From the IMG/VR virus record IMGVR_UViG_3300037882_001201, positions 1-32,535 of that record: a stretch of 32,535 nt of DNA. One strand, written 5' to 3'. This DNA is from a virus. The translations under genes and the position numbers were made by a program. Under the pieces are notes generated by a model. It made no database searches and was not told the DNA's origin. It saw nothing but the letters and a program-made list of their open reading frames with translations. Below are positions 179-30,248 of this stretch, piece after piece. Numbering within the stretch: position 1 is the stretch's first letter; the number at the start of each line of letters is the position of its first letter.

Positions 179-394
179 ATGAATCAAATAATTATACATA
201 AATTTACTTTCAATCCTTATTTTGATGGATATTTTCAAGAAGGAAATTTTTATTCTAAAGAAAATAAATTACTAAAAAAAAGAAGCTACAATGGATGTTT
301 ATGTATTGTTTTAAACAAAAAACGATATGGATTAGTTAAATTAAGGTCATTTGCAAAAAAAGTAAATAGTAATATTAATATTTGCCCTTTCTAA
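179..394 (+). CDS. hypothetical protein, 71 aa
   Basis: I do not recognise this protein. The frame is open from 59, but the part before 179 overlaps the end of the methyltransferase gene in another frame. I therefore prefer the internal ATG at 179, preceded by an AT-rich stretch, giving a 71-residue product starting MNQIIIHKF. It is basic and rich in Lys, Asn and Tyr, with no signal peptide or membrane segment. The next gene has its own promoter, so this is probably the last gene of the upstream unit. If the frame is coding from 59, the product would be 111 aa. Confidence 0.45.
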   Translation: MNQIIIHKFTFNPYFDGYFQEGNFYSKENKLLKKRSYNGCLCIVLNKKRYGLVKLRSFAKKVNSNINICPF

Positions 395-411
395 AATTTT
401 TATTAATTTTG
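381..411 (+). promoter_or_regulatory. Bacteroidota-type promoter (TTTG-N19-TAATTTTG)
   Basis: TTTG at 381-384 is followed after 19 nt by TAATTTTG at 404-411. This matches the -33 (TTG/TTTG) and -7 (TAnnTTTG) consensus of the Bacteroidota primary sigma factor at good spacing. The -7 box ends 4 nt before the ATG at 416, so the transcript would have almost no leader. Confidence 0.6.
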
Positions 412-632: not shown

Positions 633-1127
633 ATGAGCCCAGAAAAAGAAAAGATATTACTAGACATATTTAATAATGATTCTTTAAAGTCGTATGCTTA
701 CAGGGTTTCAAATGGAAATAGTTTAAAAGATGATTTATTTAGTGAGTTAATTTTATCTATAAATGATATGGATGAGATTAAGTTATTTAACTTAGTAGAT
801 GATAAAAAAATTTTAAATTATTGCTATAAAATAATTTGGCTTAGTTGGAATAGCACTACTAGCCCTTTTTATATAAAATATTTAAAAGAAAACAAAACGG
901 ATTTTATAATTTCAGAAACAAAAAAAAAATATTGTGAGGCATTTGTTTTTGATGAGTTAAAAAAAATGGAATCAAATTTAAGTAGATTCCCTACTGAAAT
1001 AAAAATTTTTGAGTTGTATTTAAAATTAAAAAGTTCACGAAAAGTTGCAAAAGAAACTGGCATACCTCGTTCTACCGTTCAGTATTTAGTTTCACAAGTA
1101 AAAAAAGAGTTATTAAAAATAAAATGA
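633..1127 (+). CDS. sigma-70-like / ECF-type sigma factor-like protein
   Basis: A 164-residue protein with two recognisable parts. Residues ~25-45 (SLKDDLFSELILSI) resemble the helical 'D-D-L-x-x-E' segment of sigma region 2. The segment around 'NSTTSPFYIKYL' (~73-84) is typical of sigma-like proteins in Bacteroidota phages. The C-terminus (~127-160) is a helix-turn-helix of the sigma region 4 type: 'SSRKVAKETGIPRSTVQYLVSQVKKEL'. Together these suggest a phage transcription initiation factor. Its stop codon overlaps the start of the next gene (ATGA at 1124-1127), so it is translationally coupled to the glycosyltransferase operon. It is a natural candidate to recognise the TTAGCCA/TA-tract motif found before late genes, but this is inference. 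A plain HTH regulator is the alternative. Confidence 0.6.
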   Translation: MSPEKEKILLDIFNNDSLKSYAYRVSNGNSLKDDLFSELILSINDMDEIKLFNLVDDKKILNYCYKIIWLSWNSTTSPFYIKYLKENKTDFIISETKKKYCEAFVFDELKKMESNLSRFPTEIKIFELYLKLKSSRKVAKETGIPRSTVQYLVSQVKKELLKIK

Positions 1128-5265: not shown

Positions 5266-5932
5266 CTACGCATCAAAAGGACGCGAAGATTATCATAAAG
5301 GACTATTAAGATTAATTGATAGTGCTTTACTGTTTGATTTGGATATACGAGTTTACTCACCAGACATGGCTATTGATAGTTACAAAGGTGTACCGATACT
5401 ACGTGATAGTGTAACACCCCATAGCGAAGTGCCATACAAGTTTAAGTTTGAACTAATACGAAAGGCTGTTAACGATGGATATAAAAGGATAGTATGGTTA
5501 GATAGCTCCTTAATAATAAAAAAGGATTTGAACGAATTATTTATTGGAGCAGGTTTTTGTTTTGATAACTTAGGACATCCTTTATGCAAATACATAAGCG
5601 ACAAATCACAAAGCAACCTTTGGCTAAGTGATAGCGACTTACTCGAAATACCCCAAGTATGGGGCGGTGCATTTGGGTTAAACTTTAACTACGATATATC
5701 CTATAAAGTATTAGAAGATATAATAAAACAATCAGAGCTAGGTTCGTTTAACGAGGGTACAAGTGCAAGGCATGGATTTGTAGCACATAGACACGATCAA
5801 GCGGTTATGAGCGTGTTATTCAATAGACATGGAATAAAGATGTACGATTATGGATTTATAACAACAGCATCACATTGCTTTGAGCCATACGAATACGGTA
5901 ACCACGCATACATTCATCACTTATCAATATGA
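5246..5932 (+). CDS. GT-A-like glycosyltransferase
   Basis: A 228-residue protein starting MKTLLISYASKGREDYHKG. 'YKFKFELIRKAV' followed by 'YKRIVWLDSSLIIKKDLNEL' (~82-101) is the pattern of transferases that carry a D-x-S or D-x-D motif at the end of a hydrophobic strand. The C-terminal 'VAHRHDQAVMSVLFNRHG' matches the 'H-D-Q-x-x-x-x-x-L' motif common in galactosyl- and glucosyltransferase-like families. I am confident of a sugar-transferase fold and unsure of donor or acceptor. The start overlaps the previous gene by 20 nt; the end overlaps the TylF-like gene by ATGA. Confidence 0.72.
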   Translation: MKTLLISYASKGREDYHKGLLRLIDSALLFDLDIRVYSPDMAIDSYKGVPILRDSVTPHSEVPYKFKFELIRKAVNDGYKRIVWLDSSLIIKKDLNELFIGAGFCFDNLGHPLCKYISDKSQSNLWLSDSDLLEIPQVWGGAFGLNFNYDISYKVLEDIIKQSELGSFNEGTSARHGFVAHRHDQAVMSVLFNRHGIKMYDYGFITTASHCFEPYEYGNHAYIHHLSI

Positions 5933-6567
5933 CAGAAGGACAAATAATGCAGTATTGTTACGCAAATGTAACAACGTGCGAAAACACAATGGAAATGACA
6001 CGCTACGTTATTGATAACAATATTGAAGGGGACTTTGTTGAGTGTGGTGTTGCAGCTGGAGGTCAGATATGTTTAATGAAAAAGACTTTAGGACATAAAG
6101 GACAAATAAGAAACATTATTGCATTTGATTCATTTGAGGGTATACCATACGGACTTGAAGGTAAAGACACTGAGCAAGCTGGTATCGGATGGATTCCAGA
6201 TATGGATGGAAGGCTAGTTAGTACAGGAATAACAGCGCATCCAATTGAAAACTGTAAGAACAACATAGTAAATGCTTGTGGCAACTTGCACAACATAGAG
6301 TTTATTGCTGGATGGTTTCAGGATACACTACCAAAATACAAACCAAACAAGATAGCTTTACTTCGTTTAGATGGCGACCTTTACGAAAGCACAATGGTAT
6401 GTTTAAAGTACCTATTCAAGTCAGTAGTAAAAGGTGGTGTAGTTATTGTAGATGACTATGGGTTAACTGGATGCAAGTTAGCATGTGACGAATATTTTAA
6501 AAAAATAAGATACAAGCCAAACTACCAAACAATAAAAGATAGTACAGCCGTGTACTTTATAAAATAA
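5929..6567 (+). CDS. TylF/MycF-family O-methyltransferase
   Basis: A 212-residue SAM-dependent methyltransferase of the macrocin O-methyltransferase (TylF) type. 'EGDFVECGVAAGGQICLMKK' (~33-52) is the family's SAM-binding start. 'IIAFDSFEGIPYG' (~64-76) is the hallmark DSFEG(L/I)P motif. 'ALLRLDGDLYESTM' and 'GGVVIVDDYG' supply the metal-binding aspartates. Family members methylate hydroxyls of sugars or other small molecules. It ends the glycan operon: two methyltransferases plus six transferase-like proteins imply a methylated oligosaccharide product. Confidence 0.9.
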   Translation: MTEGQIMQYCYANVTTCENTMEMTRYVIDNNIEGDFVECGVAAGGQICLMKKTLGHKGQIRNIIAFDSFEGIPYGLEGKDTEQAGIGWIPDMDGRLVSTGITAHPIENCKNNIVNACGNLHNIEFIAGWFQDTLPKYKPNKIALLRLDGDLYESTMVCLKYLFKSVVKGGVVIVDDYGLTGCKLACDEYFKKIRYKPNYQTIKDSTAVYFIK

Positions 6568-8945: not shown

Positions 8946-8980
8946 TTAGCCAATTCAATTCTTTTTATATTTATATATAA
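8946..8980 (+). promoter_or_regulatory. TTAGCCA / TA-tract motif, copy 1
   Basis: TTAGCCA at 8946-8952, then a TA-rich tract (TATAT from 8966, TATATATAA at 8972-8980), then ATG at 8988. The same 7-mer plus TA tract occurs in three other gene-preceding gaps. It looks like a phage promoter different from the host consensus; function is inferred. Confidence 0.5.
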
Positions 8981-8987
8981 AAGGCAA

Positions 8988-9578
8988 ATGAAAGTACCTA
9001 GTAAGTGGAGTGAGTTAACAATTGATAAATTCTATCTATTAAATGAGGCTTCAAAATTAGATTTTAAAAATGATGAAATAAAATCATTTGCTATTCTTGG
9101 TGCAATAACAGGTAAAGAGCCTGAATACTTTGAGAATATTCCAATTAATTTATTAAAGAAGTATCTAAACGATGCATCTTTTATTTCTACTGAAATTCCT
9201 AAAAAAAAGGCTGCAATATCTTTTAAATTAAAAAATAGAAGGTTTGAGTTTGATATGTATTTGAGGGATAGTATCGCATCTTGCTTTATTGATATTAGCG
9301 AATACGCTAAATCCCCAAATGAAAATATACACAATGTTCTCTCAATATTTGCTTATGAGTTAAATTGGTTTGGAAAACGAAAACCAAAAACAATAAAGAA
9401 TCAAAAAGAATATGCCGAATTATTTTTAAAAAATCTAACAATTGATCTTGCTATGAGTTATAGCACTTTTTTTTTGAACAGTTGGGAGAAATTGCAGAGA
9501 GCTACAAAAACTTATTTGGTAAAGGAGAGACTGAAAGTATTGAAGATGGCGAAGAAGATGTTAGACCATCATTTATAA
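8988..9578 (+). CDS. tail assembly chaperone, zero-frame product (gpG-like)
   Basis: A 196-residue protein starting MKVPSKWSELTIDKFYLLNEASKLDF, with 'SFAILGAITGKEPEYFENIPINLLKKYL'. This opening ('P-x-x-W-x-x-x-T-I-x-x-F' and 'x-x-I-L-x-x-I-T-G') is common in a family I know upstream of tail genes in Bacteroidota phages. A run of nine T at 9467-9475 lies near its end, and the next ORF continues the family's usual C-terminus in the -1 frame. The zero frame runs only 34 codons past the slip site. By analogy with lambda gpG/gpGT these are chaperones that load the tape measure protein. The residues after the slip site (LNSWEKLQRATK...) are basic and not family-like, fitting a terminated minor frame. 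Confidence 0.65.
   Translation: MKVPSKWSELTIDKFYLLNEASKLDFKNDEIKSFAILGAITGKEPEYFENIPINLLKKYLNDASFISTEIPKKKAAISFKLKNRRFEFDMYLRDSIASCFIDISEYAKSPNENIHNVLSIFAYELNWFGKRKPKTIKNQKEYAELFLKNLTIDLAMSYSTFFLNSWEKLQRATKTYLVKERLKVLKMAKKMLDHHL
9467..9475 (+). other. probable -1 ribosomal frameshift site (T9)
   Basis: Nine consecutive T lie in zero-frame codons ACT TTT TTT TTG. A -1 slip after the TTT at 9471-9473 reads TTT GAA CAG TTG GGA, joining '...SYSTFF' to 'FEQLGEIAESYKNLF' and giving a fused product of about 255 residues. The -1 frame is closed by TAG at 9461-9463, just upstream, and has no ATG until well inside the ORF. An insertion/deletion error in the T run is the main alternative. Confidence 0.6.
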
Positions 9579-9754
9579 AACATTGGAGCTGGTACTATTT
9601 ATTAGATAATTTAAGTAATAATGATAGAAGTAAGTGGGATTTTTTTCTAAACATGAATACGATTGAGTTTATAAATACAATGGCATATTTTAAAGATAAA
9701 CAGGATTACATTATCAGTGAACAAAAGAGAATGACAAATGCCCATAAACGGTAA
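9482..9754 (+). CDS. tail assembly chaperone, -1 frame extension (gpT-like)
   Basis: This ORF is open from 9464 and has only TTG near its beginning, so it is best read as the frameshifted extension of the preceding gene. It contains an acidic linker (GKGETESIEDGEEDVRPS) followed by 'HWSWYYLLDNLSNNDRSKWDFFLNMNTIEFINTMAYFKDKQDYI'. The 'W-S-W-x-x-L-x-x-x-L-x-x-x-D' then 'x-x-F-x-N-x-x-x-Y-x-K' pattern closes the single-ORF homologues I recall from other Bacteroidota phages. As a fusion it would bind both the tail tube and the tape measure, as lambda gpGT does. Independent translation from TTG 9482 is possible but unlikely. Confidence 0.6.
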   Translation: MGEIAESYKNLFGKGETESIEDGEEDVRPSFIKHWSWYYLLDNLSNNDRSKWDFFLNMNTIEFINTMAYFKDKQDYIISEQKRMTNAHKR

Positions 9755-10331
9755 AGATATATTAGCTAGTTACTCACAAAAATTTGTTAATGCATTACAC
9801 ACTAGTTTGTCTAATGTCGACAGAGTTTCAGCAGGAGGTTTGTATCAAAGCATTAAAGCACCAGTAAAAATTTTAGGGCAAAAAGTAGTATTAGAAATAA
9901 GAATGGCAGACTATTGGGACTACGTGAATGAAGGTGTTGATGGATGGAATAGAAGTGTAGGTAGTCCGTTTAAGTTTAAGAAAGCAGGTAAAAGAATACC
10001 ATTGCAGAGTATGAAAGACTTTATGGCTAACAGAGGTATTCAACCTACAATGAATATTAAAAGGAACCAAGTAATAGCAAAGTTAAAGAGTAAGAAGCTA
10101 AAGAAAGCATTAAAAGCGGATAGCAAAGAAAAGGATTTAAATAGTGCAGCTTATGCAATAGGGTATAGCGTAAAGAAAAAAGGTATTAAGCCTACACACT
10201 TTGCAGATGATGTAATGCAAGGTCTTTTAAAAAAAGAATTAGAAAAGGAATTAAAATTAAAAATAGGTAGACAGATTAGAGTTGAAATAAAATTATTTAC
10301 AAATGGCAATAACAATAGCTCAAGCACCTAA
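9738..10331 (+). CDS. HK97 gp10-like tail completion / minor tail protein
   Basis: A 197-residue basic protein with 'LYQSIKAPVKILGQKVVLEIRMADYWDYVNEGVDGWNRSVGSPFKFKKAGKRIP' in its first half. The 'SL/SI - strand - A-x-Y-W-x-Y-V-x-x-G-V-x-G' layout is that of small tail-completion or head-tail joining proteins in Bacteroidota phages (HK97 gp10-like). The C-terminal half is Lys-rich and helical (KSKKLKKALKADSKEK). It overlaps the chaperone ORF by 17 nt and the next gene by 29 nt. Exact position in the virion is inferred from context. Confidence 0.6.
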   Translation: MPINGKDILASYSQKFVNALHTSLSNVDRVSAGGLYQSIKAPVKILGQKVVLEIRMADYWDYVNEGVDGWNRSVGSPFKFKKAGKRIPLQSMKDFMANRGIQPTMNIKRNQVIAKLKSKKLKKALKADSKEKDLNSAAYAIGYSVKKKGIKPTHFADDVMQGLLKKELEKELKLKIGRQIRVEIKLFTNGNNNSSST

Positions 10332-11550
10332 TACATTACAGCCAGCTTACAATGACTTAAACCATGTAGTTACTAGTACTAATTACACACAGGCAAATTT
10401 TAGATATGTATGTGATTTATATGTAAATGGTTCATCATCTTTTAAAAGAATAAAAATACCACCAGACCCCACGTTTGGAAGTGGATATTTTAATCCATCA
10501 AGAATATTAGAAGATTATTTAACTCACGATTTTGATGTATCAAACATCGCATCTTATACGTGCCCCAACTCATTGATAAGTTATATTGTAAAATTTGGGG
10601 AGGAGTATGGGCTTAGCTCTAGCGGAACTACCGTATATGCAGACCTTACTGTTCAATCAAAAAAGTTTATATGGAATGGTGTTTTTGATTACGAAGACTA
10701 TTGTAACGCAACATTTAGTAATTACCAGTCAGGCTCGACATCATCTAAGATGTTGACTAATGCACCTGATGGAAAAAAAGTGTTTATTGATAGTAGTACA
10801 GATAGTGGGAATGAGTTTATTTATGGCATAAATGCAAGCTCTGGCGATATTTATTATTTGTCAGTAGTTACTTTTGACTCGTCTATTACTCCGATTGGAG
10901 GTTATAGAATAAAAAACACAGACCAAGCACTTACTAATGATACTCAAAAAATGGTTGGATTCCCTTGTGGTATAAACATGAACGCCATATCAGCTAGTAA
11001 CATAGACATACTAACAGGTACGTTACCAATAATAACAAGTAGTGTGTATGGGTATACGTTGCAGTTTATTAAATTTAATTCCACAGCAACAAGTGAAAGC
11101 AAGACATATTACATTGACAGGACTTGTACACGCTATCCATTATATGAGTTGTATTTTCTAAATAAATTAGGAGGGTATGATACTTTTTCTTTTCTGAAGA
11201 AGTCTAATTTTAAGAGTGAAATAAAAAGAGAAACTTATAAAAGAAATTTTGGGGAGCTAACTAGTGCGACTAATTACTCTATAAATGAAAATCAAAGAGG
11301 GCGTAAAGATTACTCTACTGTTATAGACGATACAATTACATTAAGAAGTGACTATATAAATGAAGAAACACAAAACTGGCTAGAAGAGCTAGTTACAAGC
11401 CCTGATATTTATATGTTAAGAGATGGAGAGCATATACCTATTCAGATTGTAACATCTCAATTTGAAAGAGAGCAAACGGTAAACAAAAAGTTATTTAATT
11501 TAATTATAGATATTAAATTTAGTTATAAACGTTTTAGACAAAGAGGCTAA
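10303..11550 (+). CDS. phage tail structural protein, 415 aa
   Basis: A beta-rich 415-residue protein beginning MAITIAQAPNTLQPAYNDLNHVVTS, a start I associate with tail-tip proteins of Bacteroidota phages. 'FRYVCDLYVNGSSSFKRIKIPPDP' and 'YPLYELYFLNKLGGYDTFSF' (~281-300) are recognisable family segments, and the C-terminal 'TLRSDYINEETQNWLEELVTSPDIYML' ends the distal domain. Its place just before the largest tail protein and the tape measure suggests a distal-tail or baseplate component. No enzyme motif is visible. The stop codon shares its last base with the next ATG. Confidence 0.6.
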   Translation: MAITIAQAPNTLQPAYNDLNHVVTSTNYTQANFRYVCDLYVNGSSSFKRIKIPPDPTFGSGYFNPSRILEDYLTHDFDVSNIASYTCPNSLISYIVKFGEEYGLSSSGTTVYADLTVQSKKFIWNGVFDYEDYCNATFSNYQSGSTSSKMLTNAPDGKKVFIDSSTDSGNEFIYGINASSGDIYYLSVVTFDSSITPIGGYRIKNTDQALTNDTQKMVGFPCGINMNAISASNIDILTGTLPIITSSVYGYTLQFIKFNSTATSESKTYYIDRTCTRYPLYELYFLNKLGGYDTFSFLKKSNFKSEIKRETYKRNFGELTSATNYSINENQRGRKDYSTVIDDTITLRSDYINEETQNWLEELVTSPDIYMLRDGEHIPIQIVTSQFEREQTVNKKLFNLIIDIKFSYKRFRQRG

Positions 11551-14285
11551 TGGGAAGAACTAGAATAGATTTAGTAAGCAGTGGAAGTATTGATATGTAT
11601 GACGATGTTTCATCGCCTATTAATTTTGCAATAGCGGATATTAGAGAGCCAGAGAAGAGGGATGCTAGCTACTCTAAGACGATTAAAATACCTGCAACTA
11701 AAAACAATAATAAATTATTTACACATATATTTGATTTAGGATTAAGTGATAGTAGTTTTAATCCTAATAGAAAGGCTGATTGCATATTATACATAGATGA
11801 TGTTCCACAGATATATGGGTATTTACAATTACTAAGTATTGATGTTGACGATAAGAGTGACATGGTTTATAGCTGCTCTATTCGTGGACAAGTTGGAAAT
11901 ATATTCCAAAAGTTAGGTGATACGGAGTTAAGAGATTTAGATTATAGCTCTTACTCTCATACATTAAATAGGATAAATCAAAAAGCATCATGGACTAACA
12001 ACCATAGTAACGGCTATGTTTACCCTATGATTGATTATGGCTTTGATAATAATTTTAATTCATTTGACACTATACATTTTTTACCATCAATATTTTTAAG
12101 GACTTATATAGATAAAATATTTAGTTATACTGGATATACCTATGATAGCTCTTTTTTTGATAGTACTCATTTTAAAAATTTAATCATACCCGCTAATGAT
12201 GTATTAAAATATACTGAATCGCAAATTGCCGCTAAATTATTTGAGGCAAGTATTTCATCAAACGTAAATGTAACGGCTAGTAATTTTCCAGCTGCATTAG
12301 TTCCGTTTAATAATGATATAAGTGACCCAGCTAATGCATTTGATACTGGTATTAGTAGGTGGGTTGCCCCTACATCAGGATATTATAATATTTCATCCGA
12401 TGTTAGTTGGACTAGTAGCTCGGTAATTCCTACGTGGGTTGAGTTACAAAAGAATGGCAATAATACAGCAATAGCATCAACATATACACAAGCAATTAGC
12501 ACTACGGTTGGAACTATCAACGTAAACATTCAAAACCATTTTTTAAATGCAGGTGATTATATAGAAGTAAAGTTAAGGTGTTTTAGTGCTATATATAATG
12601 GTCAAACATATAACGTTAAAACAACTTCTAGGTTCAATAACTCAATACCTAATAATGGATTACAATATGGTGATACTGTTGATTTATCTTTAGCTGTACC
12701 AAATAAAATAAAGTGTAAAGATTTATTAAGTGATGTAATAAAAATGTTTGGACTTTATGTTGATGTTGATAAGAATGATAGTAATAGGTTATTAATTGAA
12801 ACAAGGGACGATTTTTATTCAAGTGGAACAATAAATGATTGGACTTATAAACTAGATAACTCACGGGTTTTAGAGGTTACTCCAATGGGAGAATTAGATT
12901 TTAAAGTTTTTAATTATAAATATAAAAGCGATAAAGACTCATACAATAGTATTTATGAAAGTAAATACAATGAAGTATATAGTAACAGGTCGGTTGAGGT
13001 TGACTCAGATTTTTTAACTAGAAATAGAACATTAGAAGTAATGTTTAGCCCTACTCCAGTTGTAGCATCTGCTGGGGATGACAAAGTGATGCCTAAAATT
13101 TGGGAGGCAGATAATTCAGGAGTTGTAAAATTCAAGCCTTCAAATATTAGATTACTTTATTATGGAGGTGTTTTAAATACTAATAACACATGGGTATATA
13201 CAGATAACGGAATATCATACAATGAAACAACTTATCCATATTGCGGGCACTTAAATAGTATAACAGCACCAACATTTGATTTAAGTTTTGCACCTCCAAA
13301 GGAGTTGTTTTATAATACAAATATTTATACTAATGCTAATGTTTATAATTTATATCATAAAAAACAAATAGAAGAAATTACAAGCCCTGATAGTAAAATT
13401 ATTGTTGGTTATTTTCATTTAACACCAACGGATATATTTGATTTAGATTTTAGAAATAAGTTTTATTTTGAAGGGCAATATTTTAGATTAAATAAAATAT
13501 ATGATTACGACCCGATAAACACACAAACCACACGCTGTGAGTTTATAAAAATAAAAGACGGAACAATAATAACAGCGAGTAGCTCAACTATAAATGGTGG
13601 AACAGGTATTTTACAAGGCGACCCAAAGCCAGTTGTAACGGGGCAAAGAAGTGGTATAATAGTTCAAGGCAGTGGAAACTCATTAGGAGGTAATTTAAGA
13701 AATGCAATAATTATAGGAGATAATAATTATGTTCATGGAGGAACCAATATAACATTAATCAATAGTAGTGGATGCACTATTTATGATGGGCTTAGTAATG
13801 TAAGTATATTCAATAGTAGCGGAACAATAGTAACGGAGAGTAACTCACTTATTATGTTCAACACAACAATTACAAGTGGTACAATAGCATCGCTAGGAAA
13901 TACAGAGTGGAGTAGCCACCCATACAATAGTAGTGATTATTATACAGATGGTGGCGGAACATGGGCTGTTGATAGTGCTGATTTGATTAACAATAAATAT
14001 AGACAGGTCGGTAAAACACTGTTCTGGAGTCTAGTAATTGAAGACTCAACATTTTCAGGTGGTGTTACGTTTCCTAATATAAAATTACCAAACGGATTAA
14101 TTGTTGGCTCTACGTTTGCGGAAAATGTAATTGTTTCCGATGGGTCACAAATGTACAACGATATATTTATTCTAGGAAACGAGGGTAATAATTATTTAAT
14201 AATAAAAGCGTGGGACTCGGGCCCTTTTAGCAACTCAACAAACATGGTTGACGTAGCTTTTTCATTAACATTTGAGATACAATAA
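11550..14285 (+). CDS. large tail protein (tail-tip / receptor-binding candidate), 911 aa
   Basis: The largest protein in the window. The N-terminal ~150 residues (MGRTRIDLVSSGSIDMYDDVSSPINFAIADIREPEKRDASYSKT...) resemble baseplate or tail-hub proteins. The 'YSKTIKIPATKNNNKLF' segment recalls Bacteroidota phage tail proteins. Residues ~250-370 are Ser/Thr/Asn-rich beta strands ('YNISSDVSW', 'VELQKNGNN') like a carbohydrate-binding jelly roll. The last ~250 residues contain short repeated turns ('IVQGSGNSLGGN', 'IIIGDNNYVHGG', 'ITLINSSGCT', 'VSIFNSSGTI') typical of a beta-helix found in host-recognition proteins. Immediately precedes the tape measure. Receptor binding is inference. Confidence 0.6.
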   Translation: MGRTRIDLVSSGSIDMYDDVSSPINFAIADIREPEKRDASYSKTIKIPATKNNNKLFTHIFDLGLSDSSFNPNRKADCILYIDDVPQIYGYLQLLSIDVDDKSDMVYSCSIRGQVGNIFQKLGDTELRDLDYSSYSHTLNRINQKASWTNNHSNGYVYPMIDYGFDNNFNSFDTIHFLPSIFLRTYIDKIFSYTGYTYDSSFFDSTHFKNLIIPANDVLKYTESQIAAKLFEASISSNVNVTASNFPAALVPFNNDISDPANAFDTGISRWVAPTSGYYNISSDVSWTSSSVIPTWVELQKNGNNTAIASTYTQAISTTVGTINVNIQNHFLNAGDYIEVKLRCFSAIYNGQTYNVKTTSRFNNSIPNNGLQYGDTVDLSLAVPNKIKCKDLLSDVIKMFGLYVDVDKNDSNRLLIETRDDFYSSGTINDWTYKLDNSRVLEVTPMGELDFKVFNYKYKSDKDSYNSIYESKYNEVYSNRSVEVDSDFLTRNRTLEVMFSPTPVVASAGDDKVMPKIWEADNSGVVKFKPSNIRLLYYGGVLNTNNTWVYTDNGISYNETTYPYCGHLNSITAPTFDLSFAPPKELFYNTNIYTNANVYNLYHKKQIEEITSPDSKIIVGYFHLTPTDIFDLDFRNKFYFEGQYFRLNKIYDYDPINTQTTRCEFIKIKDGTIITASSSTINGGTGILQGDPKPVVTGQRSGIIVQGSGNSLGGNLRNAIIIGDNNYVHGGTNITLINSSGCTIYDGLSNVSIFNSSGTIVTESNSLIMFNTTITSGTIASLGNTEWSSHPYNSSDYYTDGGGTWAVDSADLINNKYRQVGKTLFWSLVIEDSTFSGGVTFPNIKLPNGLIVGSTFAENVIVSDGSQMYNDIFILGNEGNNYLIIKAWDSGPFSNSTNMVDVAFSLTFEIQ

Positions 14286-14287
14286 AA

Positions 14288-16000
14288 ATGGCAAAAGAAG
14301 TAATAGCATATAGCATAGAGGCTGATAGTAATAAGGCTGGCAAGTCTTTAAGTGATTTAAAAAAAGAGTTTAAAGAAGGACAAAAGGAGCTATCTAATTT
14401 AACTAAAGGGACTAAAGAATATATAGCTCAATTAGAGAGGTTGGGCGGATTGAGAGATGATATAGGAGATTTACGCGACACTATAAATGCTTTTAATCCA
14501 GACCAGAAATTTAAAGCCTTATCGGGTGTTATAGGTGGTGTAGCTAATGGTTTTAGTGCAGTAACATCTGCTACTGCATTGTTTGGCTCTCAAAACGAAG
14601 AGTTAGAAAAAACTTTAGTGAAAGTACAAGCGGCTATGGCATTTAGCCAATCTATAAATCAATTAGGAGAGTTAAAAGATGGGTTTAAAAATTTAGGTTT
14701 AGTTATTAAAGCAGCTTTTGCAAGCAACCCATTGGGATTAATAGCCACAGGAGTTGCAGCCATAGCAACTGCTTTAACAGCTTTTTACTACTCAATGGAT
14801 AAGAGTAGTGATGCAACAAAAGAATTAAATAAACAATTAGAAGTTCAAAAAGCAAGTAACGAAATATTAAGTAGACAGATAGAGAGAGAGATAGGTGCAT
14901 TAAAAGCACAGGGTGCTAGTGAAGAAGAAGTAATAAAAGTAAAACGAAGATTAATATTAGCTAAAATACAAGAAGTTGAAACGTCAATAAAGTTGCATGA
15001 AAGCAAGATAAGAGATGTGCAGGATAACAATTCGATTCAGGAAAGTTATTTAGAGATAAGTGCATCTATCCAAAGAAAGTTAGGAAATGAAAAGGCTGCG
15101 GAGGTTTTTGAAAAAGCTATTCAAGAAAATAAAAAGGGCAGAGCAAAAGAGGATTTGGATGCAATAGAAAAAGAAAAACAAGATTTATTAGATTTTAAAC
15201 AAAATTTTGAGAATTTAAAATATGAAGAAATAAATTTAGAAAAGAAAAAAACAGAGAATTATATAACGGAATTAGGCAAAAGGAAAGATGCCGAGTTAAA
15301 GCATAGGCAAGATATTCAAAGGATGTTAGACGAGTCTGCTATTGCTGACTTAGAACGTAGAATAAATAGTGCACAAACTTTTGAAGAAAAACAAAAAGAT
15401 GAGTTTGCTGCTATGGATGAAATAGACTCTTTTTATAACTCTTTAGAAGAAAAAAAATCGGAACAAAGAAAAGAACTAACAAAAGAAGAGGTTAATTCAA
15501 GAATAGATACATACCAGTCAATGGCTGATGGAATAAAAAATATTACAGATTTAATTTTTAGTTTTCAGTTGAATCATGCTAAAGGGAATGCCGTTGCAGA
15601 AAAACAAATAAGGCGAAAACAGTTTAACGTAAATAAGGCTTATGGAGCTACAAGTGCGACTATTGATGGAATACAAGCTGTTCAAAAAACATTAGCAACA
15701 GGTGGAGCTTTAGCAATACCAGCATCAATAGGTGTTGGTGCTATGGCTACCGCAAATGTTTTAAAAATACTTTCACAAAAATTTGATGAAAGTGGAGGTG
15801 GTTCTAGCCAATCTGCTATTAATGTAACAGCACCAACAATAACATCACCTAGTCAAGGTAGCACTCAGTTAAATGCGGACGGCACAGTAAAACAACCAAT
15901 ATCTAATAATGAAAATGCAAGTAAAGTTTATTTAGTTGAAACAGATGTAACGAAATCACAAAAAAGAGTTAGTTCTATCGAGTTAAACTCTAAAATATAA
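14288..16000 (+). CDS. tail tape measure protein
   Basis: A 570-residue protein with an N-terminal helical, charged region (KAGKSLSDLKKEFKEGQKELSNLTKGTKEYIAQLERL), a Gly/Ala-rich hydrophobic stretch 'NPLGLIATGVAAIATALTAFYYSM' (~143-166), and long Lys/Glu coiled coils (~170-400). A second Ala/Gly-rich segment follows (~448-485, 'GALAIPASIGVGAMATANVLKIL'). This is the usual architecture of tape measure proteins, which set tail length and help DNA entry. At roughly 0.15 nm per residue the tail would be about 85 nm, fitting a short-to-medium siphovirus tail. Ends the tail module; a TTAGCCA motif follows at once. Confidence 0.85.
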   Translation: MAKEVIAYSIEADSNKAGKSLSDLKKEFKEGQKELSNLTKGTKEYIAQLERLGGLRDDIGDLRDTINAFNPDQKFKALSGVIGGVANGFSAVTSATALFGSQNEELEKTLVKVQAAMAFSQSINQLGELKDGFKNLGLVIKAAFASNPLGLIATGVAAIATALTAFYYSMDKSSDATKELNKQLEVQKASNEILSRQIEREIGALKAQGASEEEVIKVKRRLILAKIQEVETSIKLHESKIRDVQDNNSIQESYLEISASIQRKLGNEKAAEVFEKAIQENKKGRAKEDLDAIEKEKQDLLDFKQNFENLKYEEINLEKKKTENYITELGKRKDAELKHRQDIQRMLDESAIADLERRINSAQTFEEKQKDEFAAMDEIDSFYNSLEEKKSEQRKELTKEEVNSRIDTYQSMADGIKNITDLIFSFQLNHAKGNAVAEKQIRRKQFNVNKAYGATSATIDGIQAVQKTLATGGALAIPASIGVGAMATANVLKILSQKFDESGGGSSQSAINVTAPTITSPSQGSTQLNADGTVKQPISNNENASKVYLVETDVTKSQKRVSSIELNSKI

Positions 16001-16001
16001 G

Positions 16002-16033
16002 TTAGCCAAATAGTAATAATTAATATATATATG
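16002..16033 (+). promoter_or_regulatory. TTAGCCA / TA-tract motif, copy 2
   Basis: TTAGCCA at 16002-16008, one base after the tape-measure stop codon, with TATATATATG at 16024-16033. The ATG of the protease gene is at 16035, so a transcript starting about 30 nt downstream of the 7-mer would begin at the start codon. Confidence 0.5.
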
Positions 16034-16034
16034 T

Positions 16035-16625
16035 ATGGATAAATTACCAGTTTATAAAATAGTAATATCGGAAGAAGAAGATGAAAGTGGAGTAAATGCA
16101 ATTGCGTTTGTTGATGAGCCAGCTATAATGGTTAACTGGATGGCTTTTAATAGTAATCTAAAATTTAAAGCAGACGCGGAAAGAAAAATTATTGTTTCAC
16201 CTGCTATGATTCCTGACTTACCGATATTTAGACGTAGTAAAGAAATGGGCGAGTTTTATGTAGTATTTGACAAAGACCAAATAAATAAAATACAAGAAAA
16301 ATTTATGAGCAAAGGGTATCTGCATAATATAAACGAGATGCATGATACAGATAGACCGATGAGTGGTTTATTTATGAAAAATAGTTGGGTGTCGGATTAT
16401 CAAATGGGAATAAAAGCTCCTGATGCTTTTAAAGATTTGCCTGAAGGAACTTGGTTTGTATCTTATAAATTTAGCGATGATAATAAGTGGAATGAGTTTG
16501 TAAAGAGCGGAGAGTTTAATGGAATTTCTGTGGAGGGATTTTTTGATTTAGAATATTTAAAAGATACTAAAGAAAATAAATTGATCAATGAAATAAAGAA
16601 AATATTATCTAATATACAATCATAA
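16035..16625 (+). CDS. XkdF-like prohead serine protease
   Basis: A 196-residue protein matching the putative phage serine protease XkdF family (Peptidase_S78_2). The N-terminus 'LPVYKIVISEEEDESGVNAIAFVDEPAI' carries the family's 'G-V-x-A-I-A-F-V-D-E-P-A-I'. His103 in 'NEMHDTDRP' and Ser165 in 'FNGISVEGFF' are the likely catalytic His and Ser. 'GEFYVVFDKDQINKI' and 'LPEGTWFVSYKFSDD' are conserved supporting strands. Such proteases cleave the scaffold and capsid delta domain during head maturation. ATG 16035 is chosen over ATG 16031, which is out of frame. A scaffold candidate and the capsid gene follow. Confidence 0.85.
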   Translation: MDKLPVYKIVISEEEDESGVNAIAFVDEPAIMVNWMAFNSNLKFKADAERKIIVSPAMIPDLPIFRRSKEMGEFYVVFDKDQINKIQEKFMSKGYLHNINEMHDTDRPMSGLFMKNSWVSDYQMGIKAPDAFKDLPEGTWFVSYKFSDDNKWNEFVKSGEFNGISVEGFFDLEYLKDTKENKLINEIKKILSNIQS

Positions 16626-16626
16626 G

Positions 16627-16657
16627 TTAGCCACTATCTAATTAACTATATATATAA
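16627..16657 (+). promoter_or_regulatory. TTAGCCA / TA-tract motif, copy 3
   Basis: TTAGCCA at 16627-16633 starts one base after the protease stop codon. After 13 nt comes TATATATATAA at 16647-16657. The scaffold candidate begins at 16674. Confidence 0.5.
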
Positions 16658-16673
16658 TTAAAACATTTATACA

Positions 16674-17318
16674 ATGACAGGAAAAGAAGCAATTGAAAAA
16701 ATAAAAGCCGTTTTAGGCTTTGAATCTCAAAAGGCAACATTTAAAAATGCTAAATTATCGGATGGAAATATTATTTCCTATGAAGGTGATTTAGCTGTTG
16801 GCACTATTGTAATGTTAGTAGATGATTCTGGCTCTATGTTGCCTTTGCCTATTGGAGATTATGTTTTAGAAGATGGTACAACTTTTTCCGTTGTAAATGA
16901 AACAGGCGCAATAGATAATATTATAGTTGCAGCTCCACCAGAAGAAAATAAAGTTGATGGTTCAAAAAATGTAGAGTCTAATGTTACTGCTCCTGCGGCT
17001 TCAAATGCACAACCAAAAAGAATAATTAAAAGTGAAGTTGAAGAGCACGTATTTAAAATAGAGATGGAAAATGAAATAATTGAAATAGATTTTAGTTCAA
17101 TAGTTAGAATTATAAACGAAAAGTCTGAGAAACTAAGCGAAGAAAATATTGCTTTGAAAAAGCAAATAGAAAGTAATTTTAATTTTTCAAAACAGGTTGC
17201 TGAAATTGTTACAGCTATTTCAGATGAGCCTATATCATCACCAACTGAAAGTGCTGTTGTTACAAGAAAAGACCAACGCAATGAAATTAAAGAAGCATTT
17301 AAAAAATTAACAAAATAA
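16674..17318 (+). CDS. putative capsid scaffold protein, 214 aa
   Basis: Residues ~25-80 ('NAKLSDGNIISYEGDLAVGTIVMLVDDSGSMLPLPIGDYVLEDGTTFSVV') form a small beta domain often found next to, or fused to, XkdF-like proteases in Bacteroidota phages. A Pro/Ala-rich linker follows (~85-115). The rest is a charged helical coiled coil (EEHVFKIEMENEIIEIDF... IINEKSEKLSEENIALKKQI) ending in a Lys-rich tail. This two-part plan, together with the position between protease and major capsid, fits a scaffolding protein that the protease would degrade. No enzymatic motif is present. A decoration protein is the main alternative. Confidence 0.6.
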   Translation: MTGKEAIEKIKAVLGFESQKATFKNAKLSDGNIISYEGDLAVGTIVMLVDDSGSMLPLPIGDYVLEDGTTFSVVNETGAIDNIIVAAPPEENKVDGSKNVESNVTAPAASNAQPKRIIKSEVEEHVFKIEMENEIIEIDFSSIVRIINEKSEKLSEENIALKKQIESNFNFSKQVAEIVTAISDEPISSPTESAVVTRKDQRNEIKEAFKKLTK

Positions 17319-17344
17319 ATATTAACTAAAAAAAATTAAATAAA

Positions 17345-18292
17345 ATGGCAGATTATACAGTAAGCTCTTTACCAGAATATATTGAGCAAAACAAATCAGA
17401 CTTATTACACGCTTCAATTGTTGGGGCACAAACATTGACTTACCCTATTGATATTATCACAGGGATTAAGCACAAACAAACTATTAATTTTGCTGCAATT
17501 ACTTCGCCATTTCAATCTGGTGGTACTTGTACATTCAATGCATCAGGTGATACAACATTTACGCAATCTACTATCACAGTAGCTGATGTAAAAGTAGAAA
17601 ACCAATTTTGTCCTAAAACATTAGAGGAAAAATATACTCAAAAGTATTTACGTCCCGGTGTTAAACAAGATGTAATGCCATTAGAGCAATATATTACAGG
17701 AGTTGTAAATGAAACTATTGCAGCTCAAATGGAGCAAGCAATCTGGCAAGGTAACACGGCTTTCACATTCTCAACTAACTTAAAACAGTTTGATGGATTA
17801 ATCAAAGCAATTGATGCGGCTTCACCAACTTACGCAACAGCAACAGCTGATGTTACAACAGCAAATATTATCGGCATCTTACAAAATATGTACACTTCAG
17901 CACCTGCGAATATTTTATCAAAGGATTTAGTTTACATTATGGGTAAAGACACTTTCAGATTATTAGTGATTGCTTTAGGTAATGCAAATCTTTATCACGT
18001 ACCAGTTAATCAAACATTGGGAGCTTGGGAATTAATTTTTCCTTTCTTTAACATCAAAGTAATTGGAGTTGATGGTTTAAGCAACATTGCAAATACAACT
18101 GCAACCTACCAAGATAGAATTGTTTTGACATACTGGGATAACCTTTATTTCGCAACCGACTTAGTGAATGACTCAGAAAATTATGAGATGTGGTACTCAA
18201 AGGATGACAGAGTTTTTAAAATGTCTATTGAGTGGAAGGCTGGAGCTGGTGTAAAATTTGGGTCAGAAGTAGTTACTTACAAAAATTCTTAA
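17345..18292 (+). CDS. major capsid protein
   Basis: A 315-residue protein that I assign as the major capsid subunit, likely with the HK97 fold. Its segments include 'PEYIEQNKSDLLHASIVGAQTL' (N-arm), 'VENQFCPKTLEEKYTQKYLRPGVKQDVMPLEQYITGVVNETIAAQMEQAIWQG' (long spine helix, ~85-140) and 'RIVLTYWDNLYFATDLVNDSENYEMWYSKDDRVFKM' (P-domain strands). It sits right after the protease and scaffold candidates. The codons look comparatively rich in C- and G-ending choices (AAC, TTC, ACT), as expected of a highly expressed gene. A strong terminator follows the stop codon by about a dozen bases. Confidence 0.85.
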   Translation: MADYTVSSLPEYIEQNKSDLLHASIVGAQTLTYPIDIITGIKHKQTINFAAITSPFQSGGTCTFNASGDTTFTQSTITVADVKVENQFCPKTLEEKYTQKYLRPGVKQDVMPLEQYITGVVNETIAAQMEQAIWQGNTAFTFSTNLKQFDGLIKAIDAASPTYATATADVTTANIIGILQNMYTSAPANILSKDLVYIMGKDTFRLLVIALGNANLYHVPVNQTLGAWELIFPFFNIKVIGVDGLSNIANTTATYQDRIVLTYWDNLYFATDLVNDSENYEMWYSKDDRVFKMSIEWKAGAGVKFGSEVVTYKNS

Positions 18293-18303
18293 TAACCAAA
18301 ATT

Positions 18304-18332
18304 GAGAGAGAGTAAAATCTCTCTCTTTTTTT
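18304..18332 (+). terminator. rho-independent terminator after the capsid gene
   Basis: GAGAGAGA (18304-18311), loop GTAAAA, TCTCTCTC (18318-18325), then seven T (18326-18332). The perfect 8-bp stem and T run make a convincing terminator. It probably lowers read-through so that the capsid is made in excess over downstream proteins. Confidence 0.85.
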
Positions 18333-18345
18333 AAAACAAATACAA

Positions 18346-18867
18346 ATGGCGTGTACTACGATAGTTCAAGGAAGTTCAATAGATTGTTTAAACTCTATTG
18401 GCGGAATTGAGGAAATATATATTACTGAGTTTACTAATGTACCACAGGGCAATATTACAGCATCCTCTGGCGTTATATCTGCAATGAGCTGTTCTAGTGG
18501 GAAAAAGTTTTTTACTTTTCAACTTAAAAAACAAACAGCGGAATCAACGGAAAGTATAGTTAGTAATGTTGAAAATGGCACATTATATTTTGAGCAGAAA
18601 ATAACATTCACTTTGCCTAAACAATCGGCATCGCTGAGATATACCTTAAAAACATTAGCGGAAAATAGATGTATGGTAATTACTAAAGACCGAAATGGAA
18701 TCATAAAGCTATATGGTCAAACAACTGGTTGTGATATTTCTGAATCATCATTTTCTACTGGTAAAACATTTGGTGATTTTAATGGTGCTACAATTTCACT
18801 AACAGGCATGGAGCCAGAGTTAGCATCAACATTGTCATCCGCAATATTAGCAACTGTAACAGTATAG
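18346..18867 (+). CDS. major tail tube protein (probable)
   Basis: A 173-residue beta-rich protein with 'SIDCLNSIGGIEEIYITEFTNV' at the N-terminus, 'ENGTLYFEQKITFTLPKQSA' in the middle and 'MVITKDRNGIIKLYGQTTGCDISESSFSTGKTFGDFNGATISLTGMEPE' at the end. The 'GGI-x-x-x-Y-I' start and the 'D-x-N-G-x-x-x-L-x-G ... G-x-x-x-x-D-x-N-G' ending fit tail tube subunits of Bacteroidota phages. It lies between two terminators, again suggesting a separately controlled, abundant product. Its separation from the other tail genes (8988-16000) is unusual. Confidence 0.7.
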   Translation: MACTTIVQGSSIDCLNSIGGIEEIYITEFTNVPQGNITASSGVISAMSCSSGKKFFTFQLKKQTAESTESIVSNVENGTLYFEQKITFTLPKQSASLRYTLKTLAENRCMVITKDRNGIIKLYGQTTGCDISESSFSTGKTFGDFNGATISLTGMEPELASTLSSAILATVTV

Positions 18868-18890
18868 TATTTATAAATAAAAAAACGAGA

Positions 18891-18920
18891 GGTGTAATAT
18901 TAATTTACACCTTTTTTTTT
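18891..18920 (+). terminator. rho-independent terminator after the tail tube gene
   Basis: GGTGTAA (18891-18897), 7-nt loop, TTACACC (18905-18911), then nine T (18912-18920). The T run merges into the TTAGCCA motif that begins at 18919, so termination and a new start are packed within about 60 nt. Confidence 0.8.
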
Positions 18921-18951
18921 AGCCAAAAGTAGAGATTATATATATATATAT
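18919..18951 (+). promoter_or_regulatory. TTAGCCA / TA-tract motif, copy 4
   Basis: TTAGCCA at 18919-18925, 11 nt, then a TA tract from 18937 to 18951 that abuts the GTG start codon at 18952. It directly follows a terminator, which strongly suggests that a transcript must start here. Confidence 0.55.
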
Positions 18952-19356
18952 GTGATAGTAATAAACAAGAACAGTAACAACACGATAGTATTAACATTAA
19001 CAGAGAATGTTACATTAACAATGCCTTACTATTTATTTAATTTTACAAGCGATTTAAGTGGAGAGGGTATAAATTTTTTAGCAGCTGATTTAAGTGGTGC
19101 TACTGGAAGGTTCAATGAGTTTTTAATTACAGAAACAAGTGGCACTACTAATTATAGTAGTGGCACAATAGAGCTTAATCCTACTGGACAGTGGACATAT
19201 AAAGTTTACGAACAAACGAGCTCTAGTAATTTAATACCAGAAAATACAGATAATTACCCAACTTATTTAGAGATAGGAATAGTAAGAGTTAAAGGTGTTG
19301 TAGATACAACATATACAGATACAACCGATAATAATATAATAATTGTAGATGAGTAA
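18952..19356 (+). CDS. conserved phage protein, 134 aa (virion-associated candidate)
   Basis: Starts at GTG 18952 directly after the TA tract. The product MIVINKNSNNTIVLTLTENVTLTMPYYLFNFTSD... is predicted beta, with 'ATGRFNEFLITETSGTTNYSSGTIELNPTGQWTYKVYEQTSSSNL' as its best-conserved-looking part. I recall this 'L-x-P-x-G-x-W-x-Y-x-V-Y-E-Q' pattern in small proteins of Bacteroidota prophages next to structural genes; the function is not established. It resembles an Ig-like or decoration domain. The stop overlaps the portal start by 8 nt, so the two are translationally linked. Confidence 0.55.
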   Translation: MIVINKNSNNTIVLTLTENVTLTMPYYLFNFTSDLSGEGINFLAADLSGATGRFNEFLITETSGTTNYSSGTIELNPTGQWTYKVYEQTSSSNLIPENTDNYPTYLEIGIVRVKGVVDTTYTDTTDNNIIIVDE

Positions 19357-21160
19357 AATAAGTATTTTAAAATTTGAAAATCATAAAGTACCTGAGTTTA
19401 AAGAGGTAAAAGGAAAGGATTTTGTTTATTATGGTGTCGATAATCAGTATCCTGAATTTCTTACCGAGCTTGCTACTAGGTCAGCAAAACACTCCGCTAT
19501 ACTTTCTTCTAAAGTAAATTATATTTATGGAAAAGGATTAAATGTAGTATCTGCTGGAGTATCTTTAATTGAACGAGCAAAGGCAGAGGTATTTATTAAG
19601 CAATTTGATGTTGATGGATTTGGAAGAAGAATGGTTTCAGACTTTGAGTGGTTTAATGGGTTTTTTATTGAGCCGATTTTTAATAAAGCAAAAACTAAAA
19701 TTGTTTCAATAAATTATATTCCATTTTCAAAGATGAGAGTTAGTGCTGATGAAAAAAAATATTTTTATTCTAATGATTGGCGTTTATCACAAAAGCAATC
19801 ACCTGAAAAAACTGGGTATAAAGAGTTTGATCCATTTGATTTTAATAACCCAAAACCAAACACCGTTTTTTATTATAAAATATTAAGTCCAAGAAACTCA
19901 AAGGATAAGAATGTATATCCTATGCCTGAGTATGTTGGTGCAGTTACTAGTATAGAAACAGATATTGAGATTGCTAACTATCATAGAAATTGTGTTAAGT
20001 CAAATTTTTCTATTGGAACAATTATTAATTTTAATAATGGAAATCCAGATGACCTAGCTAAACAGGAAATAGAAGACTCTTTAAAGGAAAAATTTACAGG
20101 AACGGATGCCGCGGATAGCATATTAATAACATTTAATGACTCTGCTGAGAAAGCACCAACAATAACATCGTTTGCTCCAAATGAGTTAGATAAAAAATTT
20201 ATTGAAATTGGAAAGAGAGTTGAGCAAGATATTTTAACAGGACATAAGTTGACTAGTCCAATGTTAGCAGGAATAAAAACAGAGGGTCAGCTAGGTGGAC
20301 GTAGTGAAATTATTGATGCTTATGAATTATTTTATAACACTTATATTGATGTTAGACAAAATTATTTAGAAGAGGTAATAAAAAAGTTTGCTAGTTTATT
20401 TGGCATTACTTGTAAGATAGAGTTTGAAGACATAAAAGCTATTAACAGAGCTGTACCTGATAGTATTTATGAGAAGGCTTATAATTTATATGGCGCTGAA
20501 CAGCTTTTAGAAATTTTAAGATTTCCTAAAGTAAAAAAAAATATTGCCATGAGCTCAGATGTTAATATTTTCAAAAAATATGGGAGTAAAATAAATGGCG
20601 TTGTTGTAAAAGAAACACCAATTTTTGATACTGAAAATTTTGATTTTGAAAAGCACGAAAAAGATTTTTTTATAAGCTTCAAAAAAACACTTAGTGTTGA
20701 TGAAGATAAGATAATGAAAATTTTAAAGTCAGACTCATTAACACCAACTAGTGATATAGCTAAATCAATTGGAGTTTCAGAAAAAGAAGTAAATAAAATT
20801 ATTTCGAGTTTGGAAGATGAAGGTTATTTAGATGTATTATCAGAAGATATTGTGGTTAATGATTTGGGAGAAGATGTTTTGAACGGGGATAATAGAAAAG
20901 GAAATTATGAGATAAAGTATAGATATGGTTGGCGACCTGATGTAAAAAATAAAGATTTAGACAATAGCAGAGATTTTTGCAAGGACATGATAGAAGATGC
21001 TAATAGCGGTAGGGCTTATAGTCGTAGCGACATAGAGAATATGACAAATGATTTAGGGTCAAATGTTTGGGAGTTTAGAGGAGGCTGGTGGAATAAGAAT
21101 GGAGCTAATGTTCCATATTGTAGGCATATATGGTCAAGTATATTAATAAAAATAAAGTAA
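19349..21160 (+). CDS. phage portal protein with C-terminal extension
   Basis: A 603-residue protein. Residues 1-~430 follow the portal layout: 'FVYYGVDNQYPEFLTELATRSAKHSAILSSKVNYIYGKGL' at the N-terminus, then a DUF-type core with 'ANYHRNCVKSNFSIGTIINF' and 'LTSPMLAGIKTEGQLGGRSEIIDAYELFYNTYID' (~303-338). Residues ~450-510 ('EDKIMKILKSDSLTPTSDIAKSIGVSEKEVNKIISSLEDEGYLDV') look like a winged-helix unit. Residues ~520-603 ('YRYGWRPDVK...SRDFCKDMIEDANSGRAYSRSDIENM...NVPYCRHIW') resemble the terminal domain of MuF-like minor head proteins. It forms the ring through which DNA enters the head. The function of the extension is unknown. Confidence 0.8.
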   Translation: MSKISILKFENHKVPEFKEVKGKDFVYYGVDNQYPEFLTELATRSAKHSAILSSKVNYIYGKGLNVVSAGVSLIERAKAEVFIKQFDVDGFGRRMVSDFEWFNGFFIEPIFNKAKTKIVSINYIPFSKMRVSADEKKYFYSNDWRLSQKQSPEKTGYKEFDPFDFNNPKPNTVFYYKILSPRNSKDKNVYPMPEYVGAVTSIETDIEIANYHRNCVKSNFSIGTIINFNNGNPDDLAKQEIEDSLKEKFTGTDAADSILITFNDSAEKAPTITSFAPNELDKKFIEIGKRVEQDILTGHKLTSPMLAGIKTEGQLGGRSEIIDAYELFYNTYIDVRQNYLEEVIKKFASLFGITCKIEFEDIKAINRAVPDSIYEKAYNLYGAEQLLEILRFPKVKKNIAMSSDVNIFKKYGSKINGVVVKETPIFDTENFDFEKHEKDFFISFKKTLSVDEDKIMKILKSDSLTPTSDIAKSIGVSEKEVNKIISSLEDEGYLDVLSEDIVVNDLGEDVLNGDNRKGNYEIKYRYGWRPDVKNKDLDNSRDFCKDMIEDANSGRAYSRSDIENMTNDLGSNVWEFRGGWWNKNGANVPYCRHIWSSILIKIK

Positions 21161-24967: not shown

Positions 24968-24968
24968 T

Positions 24969-25187
24969 ATGAGATATATATTAATAAGTACCGAGTTTCA
25001 AGGAGAAACACAAACTAAAGATGAAGAATATTCTGTTAAAATTCGGTTAGAAATAAAAGATACAGAAAGTATAGCAGATAATTTTTTTCGCTATTTAGAT
25101 GTTATTTCTTCTAATGAGTCAACTGGTTACGAAGTTGATGAACAAAGGGAAACAGAGATAAATAATTATTTAAAATCAATAAACTAA
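24969..25187 (+). CDS. hypothetical protein, 72 aa
   Basis: A small acidic protein starting MRYILISTEFQGETQTKDEEYSV, one base after the fibre stop. It contains 'KIRLEIKDTESIADNFFRYLDVISSNESTGYEVDEQRETEINNYL', with no Cys pair, signal or membrane segment. Not recognised. Its stop TAA shares its last A with the start of the following short gene, so it is part of the fibre-lysis operon. Confidence 0.55.
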   Translation: MRYILISTEFQGETQTKDEEYSVKIRLEIKDTESIADNFFRYLDVISSNESTGYEVDEQRETEINNYLKSIN

Positions 25188-27026: not shown

Positions 27027-27034
27027 TATAAGAT

Positions 27035-28159: not shown

Positions 28160-28169
28160 AAACAAACTA

Positions 28170-28781: not shown

Positions 28782-28782
28782 A

Positions 28783-29031: not shown

Positions 29032-29057
29032 TTCATAAATTTATATCCACAGTAAAA

Positions 29058-29189: not shown

Positions 29190-29205
29190 ACTAGAGAAGC
29201 AATCA

Positions 29206-29676: not shown

Positions 29677-29686
29677 GCAGTTTATT

Positions 29687-30240: not shown

Positions 30241-30248
30241 AAAATAAA

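Follow-up and report, generated by a model that had tools for sequence, protein, structure and literature searches.

Candidate late promoters at conserved positions and a putative phage sigma factor in a family of Bacteroidota phages

How might a small tailed phage of Bacteroidota direct expression of its virion genes? The question is raised by IMG/VR record IMGVR_UViG_3300037882_001201, from a tailed phage with a Bacteroidota host, whose positions 1 to 32,535 we analyzed as one 32.5-kb stretch (hereafter the window; all window coordinates are on the + strand unless stated). An earlier inspection of the letters alone, the sequence-only reading, had described four copies of the heptamer TTAGCCA in gaps ahead of genes and proposed them as a phage-specific promoter. 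These copies are present at 8946, 16002, 16627 and 18919, each in the gap preceding a gene (starts at 8988, 16035, 16674 and 18952) and each with a TA tract downstream, as that reading had it. Computational analysis of the window and of related phages established the sites, their spacing, the conservation of their positions, motifs specific to individual lineages, a terminator and a sigma-like protein. On this basis the four sites are very likely promoters as such, and they probably serve virion genes and are read by a sigma factor that the phage itself encodes. We call them late in view of the structural genes downstream, which suggest that timing.

Each site consists of two boxes, designated box A (-35-like) and box B (-10-like). 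Site P0, in the gap after terL, has box A at 8946..8952 and box B (TATATTTA) at 8966..8973; the gene behind it (8988..9578) is the first after terL and occupies the position of a tail assembly gene. P1 (box A, 16002..16008; box B, AATATATA, 16022..16029) precedes the capsid protease gene (16035..16625; Pfam Peptidase_S78_2), with box B a few nucleotides (nt) from the ATG at 16035. P2 (box A, 16627..16633; box B, TATATATA, 16647..16654) precedes a gene for a scaffold-like protein (16674..17318), so named because it lies between the protease and capsid genes, and the major capsid gene downstream of it (17345-18292); here the start codon is farther away than at the other sites. P3 (box A, 18919..18925; box B, TATATATA, 18939..18946) follows a terminator and adjoins the GTG start at 18952 of a gene (18952..19356) that is itself followed by the portal gene (19349-21160).

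A first alternative is that an AT-rich motif recurs by chance because the genome is itself AT-rich. By itself the TTAGCCA 7-mer would allow this, being unremarkable in number (7 copies against 5.2 expected on both strands of the window); a fifth + strand copy, at 14643, lies within the tape-measure gene and is not followed by a TA tract. The pair of boxes, in contrast, is clearly over-represented. The pattern TTAGCCA-N(8-18)-TATATA matches three times in the window against 0.05 expected, and misses the copy at 8946 only because box B there is TATATTTA. An unsupervised two-box search of the four gaps recovers exactly these sites (z = 18 against 12 dinucleotide shuffles), with an identical spacer of 13 nt at all four, counted after the 8-nt box TTAGCCAA/C. 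When both strands of the window were scanned with a weight matrix, the four sites scored 24.1-25.3 and the next best match 16.9; this runner-up, TTAGCAAA-N13-ATATATATT at 24953-24982, straddles the junction of two consecutive genes. Together with the recurrence of independent pairs at homologous positions in relatives (below), the shuffles refute chance repetition, to which we assign a negligible probability.

What is constant is the distance from box A to box B. The sequence-only reading had instead suggested a fixed distance of about 30 nt from the 7-mer to the start region, and this does not hold: the distance from the end of box B to the start codon is ~3 nt at two sites, ~12-13 nt before 8988 and ~17-20 nt before 16674. 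That reading was right that the sites depart from the host consensus. The Bacteroidota housekeeping promoter, TTTG / TAnnTTTG (PMC6847099, PMC9723704), also has two elements, and neither matches the four window sites; none of the sites carries TTTG-N19-21-TAnnTTTG on the + strand, and the host TTTG is missing from every box B.

Do relatives carry the same signal? Scanning related phages for TTAGCCA-N-TATATA, as had been proposed, gave nothing: the exact TTAGCCA...TATATA pair occurs in none of six related records scanned. The reason is that the motif is lineage-specific, with other motifs at the same positions. The closest relatives found, by capsid protein identity, are L017 and L018 (87%), L153 and L020 (~71-73%), L021 (71%) and L154 (60%); at least 587 further relatives were collected with a protease profile, and 80 of them were kept. 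In place of TTAGCCA, the closest relatives carry TTGCACA-N14-TACATATA in homologous gaps. TGCACA/TACATATA stands at the P1 position in both L017 and L018, with three copies in L017 (0.01 expected), and TTGCACA occupies the P3 position in L017, L018, L020 and L153. L153 also has TTGCACA in the gap homologous to P0, and its TTGCACA/(W)ACATWTA pair is present in three copies against 0.00 expected by shuffling, with none in the other half of the record. Further pairs were found in homologous gaps of L154 (TTGCACA/TATATAAT), L173 (AGCAAC/TCTATTTTT), L145 (TTCAAAC/ATATTTAT) and both L162 and L166 (AGCAAA/TTTATATTT), and L201 has four copies of AGCAA/TATACTAAT (0.00 expected). A scan of IMG/VR with TTAGCCA-N(8-18)-TATATATA returned many contigs, with one copy each among the matches listed; we took these as chance hits and the scan as uninformative.

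The nearest cultured relatives are the Nonlabens phages P12024L (NC_018272) and P12024S (NC_018271), whose host is a flavobacterium. They are distant, with 27% identity in the portal protein and ~32% in the protease (tblastn). Portal and protease queries found them; the capsid protein had no match among cultured phages at 1e-5, and no relatives of it were found in GTDB genomes. P12024L (L258 in our set) nevertheless has six copies of AAACAA/CGTTAATA (AAACAA-N-CGTTAWTA) against 0.01 expected, at 146-174, 2998-3026, 5379-5407, 24739-24766, 25978-26006 and 27579-27607. Exactly 4 nt separate the end of each copy from an annotated start codon; these start codons are at 179, 3031, 5412, 24771, 26011 and 27612.

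To compare motif sharing among genomes, we used 25 lineages (protease clusters at 70% identity), taking the 100 nt ahead of the orthologs of the four genes behind P0-P3 and ahead of five control genes (capsid, the gene after capsid, portal and two tail-region genes). Similarity within genomes exceeded that between genomes for all six P0-P3 pairings (p = 0.024, 0.006 and 0.002, and 0.0002 for the other three). Pairings that involved controls reached p < 0.05 in 1 of 20 cases (site with control) and 1 of 10 (control with control). This enrichment, confined to the P pairings, indicates that each lineage has a motif of its own common to the four positions rather than to gene starts generally. The distribution of motifs also hints at how they change. 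By capsid protein, the window and L017 are sisters (87%), yet the TTGCACA of L017 is shared with the more distant L153 and L154 and not with the window. The simplest history would be that the window lineage switched all of its sites together, which in turn suggests a single trans-acting factor.

An intrinsic terminator, AGGTGTAA...TTACACCT followed by a T run (about 18890..18920), runs into box A of P3, so the earlier claim that the fourth copy lies directly behind a terminator stands, the terminator ending at the site. A hairpin plus T run resembling an intrinsic terminator precedes P3 in 22 of 28 genomes; the same type is found before P1, P2 and the capsid gene in 0 of 30 each and before the portal gene in 0 of 28. 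In many genomes, the window included, box A begins inside the terminator T run. Elsewhere, 14 of 30 genomes have a terminator-like hairpin after the capsid gene with no promoter motif behind it. The window has this arrangement too (18293-18345, directly 3' of the major capsid gene), and this hairpin perhaps reduces expression downstream of the capsid gene. The position of the pair relative to the start codon is informative as well. In lineages with a clear motif, the gap between box B and the start codon is mostly 3-9 nt at P0, P1 and P3 and usually 16-21 nt at P2, with the box spacing unchanged. The pair thus shifts as a unit, which supports the promoter reading. Fixed box spacing, this joint shift and the terminator-then-promoter order in 22 of 28 relatives all favor the original proposal of a phage-specific promoter.

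The same observations bear on two explanations in which the sites are not promoters. One is that they act at the RNA level, enhancing translation of a long polycistronic mRNA or marking where it is processed. In Bacteroidota, Shine-Dalgarno sites are lacking and A-rich start contexts are favored. In Flavobacterium, initiation is promoted by adenines at positions -3 and -6 (PMC6847099), and box B often adjoins the start codon here; both points would suit such a role. However, the spacing of the pair is kept even at P2, 16-21 nt away from the start codon, the P3 copy sits behind a terminator in most lineages, the five control gene starts of the same operons lack the pair, and host-wide translation signals should not differ between phages with 87% capsid identity. 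We regard RNA-level signals as improbable. The other explanation, that the sites bind a phage repressor or another DNA-binding protein and have no promoter activity of their own, would also fit repeated gap sites with a co-varying code; it is slightly less probable still, given that the layout is an asymmetric pair of boxes with no inverted repeat, always oriented with the downstream gene, and that the sites immediately precede gene starts and follow a terminator.

Reading the sites as promoters leads to a prediction about the transcripts. In Flavobacterium johnsoniae, the -7 element of host promoters occupies positions -12 to -5 (PMC6847099); applied here, this geometry would place the 5' ends of many transcripts at the start codon or beside it, so that late mRNAs from many sites are predicted to be leaderless. 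Leaderless mRNAs make up ~5.5% of the mapped mRNAs of F. psychrophilum (PMC9723704), and the mean host leader in F. johnsoniae is 33 nt (PMC6847099).

Which factor could read the sites? The sequence-only reading had alluded to a sigma-like protein, and one is encoded at 633..1127 (164 aa). In the model and by profile it comprises sigma2 (~residues 1-90) and sigma4 (~101-164) domains only, joined by a short linker, which is the composition that defines extracytoplasmic function (ECF) sigma factors. A profile of 20 family members matches the ECF sigma factor SigW (E = 4e-5, residues 7-165), and 5 of the 20 match the PHROG family 'RNA polymerase sigma factor'; 2 of 20 weakly match Sigma70_r2. The AlphaFold2 model has a mean predicted local distance difference test score of 84 and two helical domains. 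When Foldseek candidates were realigned with VIA-align, the top rows were sigma factors (AlgU, Z 9.1), although Z scores of 8-9, below ~13, are modest for helical proteins, and the profile match weighs more than the structure. The C-terminal part of the model superposes on region 4 of Escherichia coli sigmaE bound to -35 DNA (2h27) with a root-mean-square deviation (rmsd) of 2.7 A over 64 residues; the rmsd is 1.9 A to the -35 domain of SigC and 3.8-3.9 A to sigma2 of SigW. From the family profile and the model, we assign the 633-1127 product as a remote ECF-type sigma factor and propose it as the promoter reader.

Homologs are encoded in 22 of 29 relative records, those without one being mostly short fragments; L152 and L234/L236 likewise carry the gene upstream of the terminase region. 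L017 has no homolog on its 15-kb contig, and a viral scan for one gave only the L152 record. In favor of a sigma factor as reader, the P12024L protein gp35 exceeds the Pfam Sigma70_r2 cut-off (25.2 against 24), and the late-promoter candidates of that phage carry AAC and CGT, of which CGT is a sign of recognition by ECF sigma factors (PMC9723704). Of the larger non-structural proteins that were checked in a 40-kb relative, none is an RNA polymerase and the largest is a primase-helicase. As for expression of the sigma gene itself, a possible host-type promoter, TTTG-N19-TAATTTTG at 381..411, lies ahead of the genes at 416 and 633. It is a weak lead that we set aside, as one match compares with 1.0 expected by chance and the element is not conserved upstream of the relatives' sigma genes.

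The most serious competitor to a phage sigma factor is a phage activator that works with the host primary sigma factor and takes over the recognition of the -35 element. At the middle promoters of phage T4, sigma appropriation by MotA/AsiA uses a phage-specific upstream box and a short spacer and retains the host -10 element. By analogy, the activator here would bind box A, and box B would serve as the -7 element of the host, a view favored by a compact box A ~13 nt upstream of a TA-rich box and by the TAnnT-like core of box B in the window. Such a mechanism predicts a host-like -10/-7 element in every lineage; box B varies instead (TATATATA, TACATATA, TATACTAAT, TCTATTTTT, ATATTTAT, CGTTAATA), which also sets these sites apart from those of MotA/AsiA despite the shared placement of an upstream box near a -10 element. 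The host TTTG is absent from every window box B, and the conserved regulator resembles a sigma factor and has both of the DNA-binding domains. Differences in both boxes between lineages fit replacement of the sigma factor better than an activator acting with the host sigma factor. We therefore consider an activator unlikely, if less so than the other alternatives.

Several results weigh against a phage ECF-type sigma factor as the reader of these sites, or against the generality of the pattern. Alone, the window protein falls under the Pfam cut-offs (Sigma70_r4_2, 18.5 against 25.7 bits; no match to r2), the cut-off being a detection threshold and not a defining ECF trait. Foldseek with the sigma model gave no match reaching E 0.001, which we attribute to the flexible placement of the two domains; we relied instead on the profile search and on aligning each domain separately. 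In a Mantel test of promoter against sigma similarity across 17 genomes, using raw 100-nt sites, the association was not significant (region 4, r = -0.02; region 2, r = 0.17, p = 0.054), nor was it in partial Mantel tests. An AGCAA-like box A does go with the recognition helix TGISYSALR in four related phages, which, however, resemble one another in other genes as well. The canonical ECF elements, AAC at -35 and CGT at -10, occur only in the P12024L sites and not in those of the window (TTAGCCA/TATATATA), which are not classed as canonical ECF promoters. Finally, the automatic two-box search gave a clear motif in about half of the genomes supplied and no significant motif in the rest, which have miscalled starts, fewer usable sites or weaker motifs, and L153 has no motif at P1.

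Phage sigma factors that reprogram the host polymerase for late genes, as we propose here, are established in the T4 (gp55) and SPO1 (gp28 and gp33-34) systems. T4 late promoters consist of a -10-like element only and require co-activation by the sliding clamp, unlike the two boxes in this family. In our working model, host core RNA polymerase carrying the ECF-type sigma factor encoded at 633-1127 would recognize the four sites, with TTAGCCA as the -35-like element and box B (TATATATA/TATATTTA) as the -10-like element at a fixed spacing. Transcription would start at or within a few nt of the start codon at two sites, giving leaderless mRNA, and somewhat farther upstream at the other two, and the fourth promoter would restart transcription behind the intrinsic terminator. 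A single trans-acting sigma factor would set the code, so that positions are kept while both boxes at all sites change together with sigma specificity. Transcription initiation at the sites, its exact start points and the assignment of 633-1127 as the reader are what we infer from the computed features.

The closest precedent in our analysis is that of phages 7-11 and phiEco32. Their sigma factors are 15% identical and their late promoters differ, yet promoter positions are conserved (PMC8948821). The 7-11 factor, SaPh711_gp47, recognizes late promoters of the form GTAAtg-16-aCTA (PMC8948821). Our system resembles that of 7-11 in having a putative phage sigma factor with a predicted region 4, bipartite candidate promoters upstream of late genes, and positions that are shared though sigma factor and motif differ; it differs in that the sites often lie immediately before the start codon. 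Host core polymerase carrying the phiEco32 sigma factor gp36 uses middle and late promoters (PMC8948821), and we propose a comparable role here; gp36 recognizes a single-element promoter, tAATGTAtA, and lacks region 4 (PMC8948821), in contrast to the two boxes and predicted region 4 described above. Moreover, 7-11 and phiEco32 are enterobacterial podophages with two specificities proven in vitro, whereas the present genomes are siphophage-like, from Bacteroidota, with several predicted specificities in one family. Closer to the window, P12024L and P12024S likewise combine a sigma70 region 2 protein with repeated two-box sites before structural genes, the motif of P12024L being AAACAA/CGTTAWTA and that of the window TTAGCCA/TATATATA.

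Other features of the window were noted in passing. The open reading frame (ORF) behind P0 (8988-9578) overlaps a second one, which is in the -1 frame and extends to 9754, across nine consecutive T at ~9468-9476. A similar T run is present in relatives L019 and L021, together with a second ORF that is 57% identical. The two ORFs at 8988-9754 have the look of tail assembly chaperones produced as a pair through programmed frameshifting. A long series of glycosyltransferase- and methyltransferase-like genes (1124-6567) separates the sigma-like gene from the terminase genes; the first interval of this series (1124-2257) has no Pfam match. Several ORF-free gaps of 120-175 nt occur at 26876-30300, in contrast to the tightly packed left part of the window. 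At 30240-30300, upstream of an endonuclease VII-type gene (30301-30753), a host-like -7 box (TATCTTTG) stands between GGTTTG and CAAACC repeats.

Control of late transcription in small phages of Bacteroidota is seemingly undescribed: in the open literature that we searched, which is part of the whole, we found no report of late promoters for these phages, P12024L and P12024S included. Taken across the family, we lean toward the view that these Bacteroidota phages represent a natural radiation of sigma/late-promoter pairs, in which positions are fixed, promoter elements switch together and track a fast-evolving ECF-type sigma factor, and many late mRNAs are leaderless. More phage sigma/promoter pairs at conserved positions have been predicted (PMC8948821), and our findings fit that prediction. 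Leaderless late mRNAs, if true, would contrast with hosts whose mRNAs are mostly leadered. The cultured Nonlabens phages P12024L and P12024S make the system testable, with P12024L a promising experimental model. Bacteroidota have few orthogonal expression parts, and the several sigma/promoter pairs described here, apparently mutually distinct and differing by known sequences, would make sigma-promoter co-evolution directly testable.

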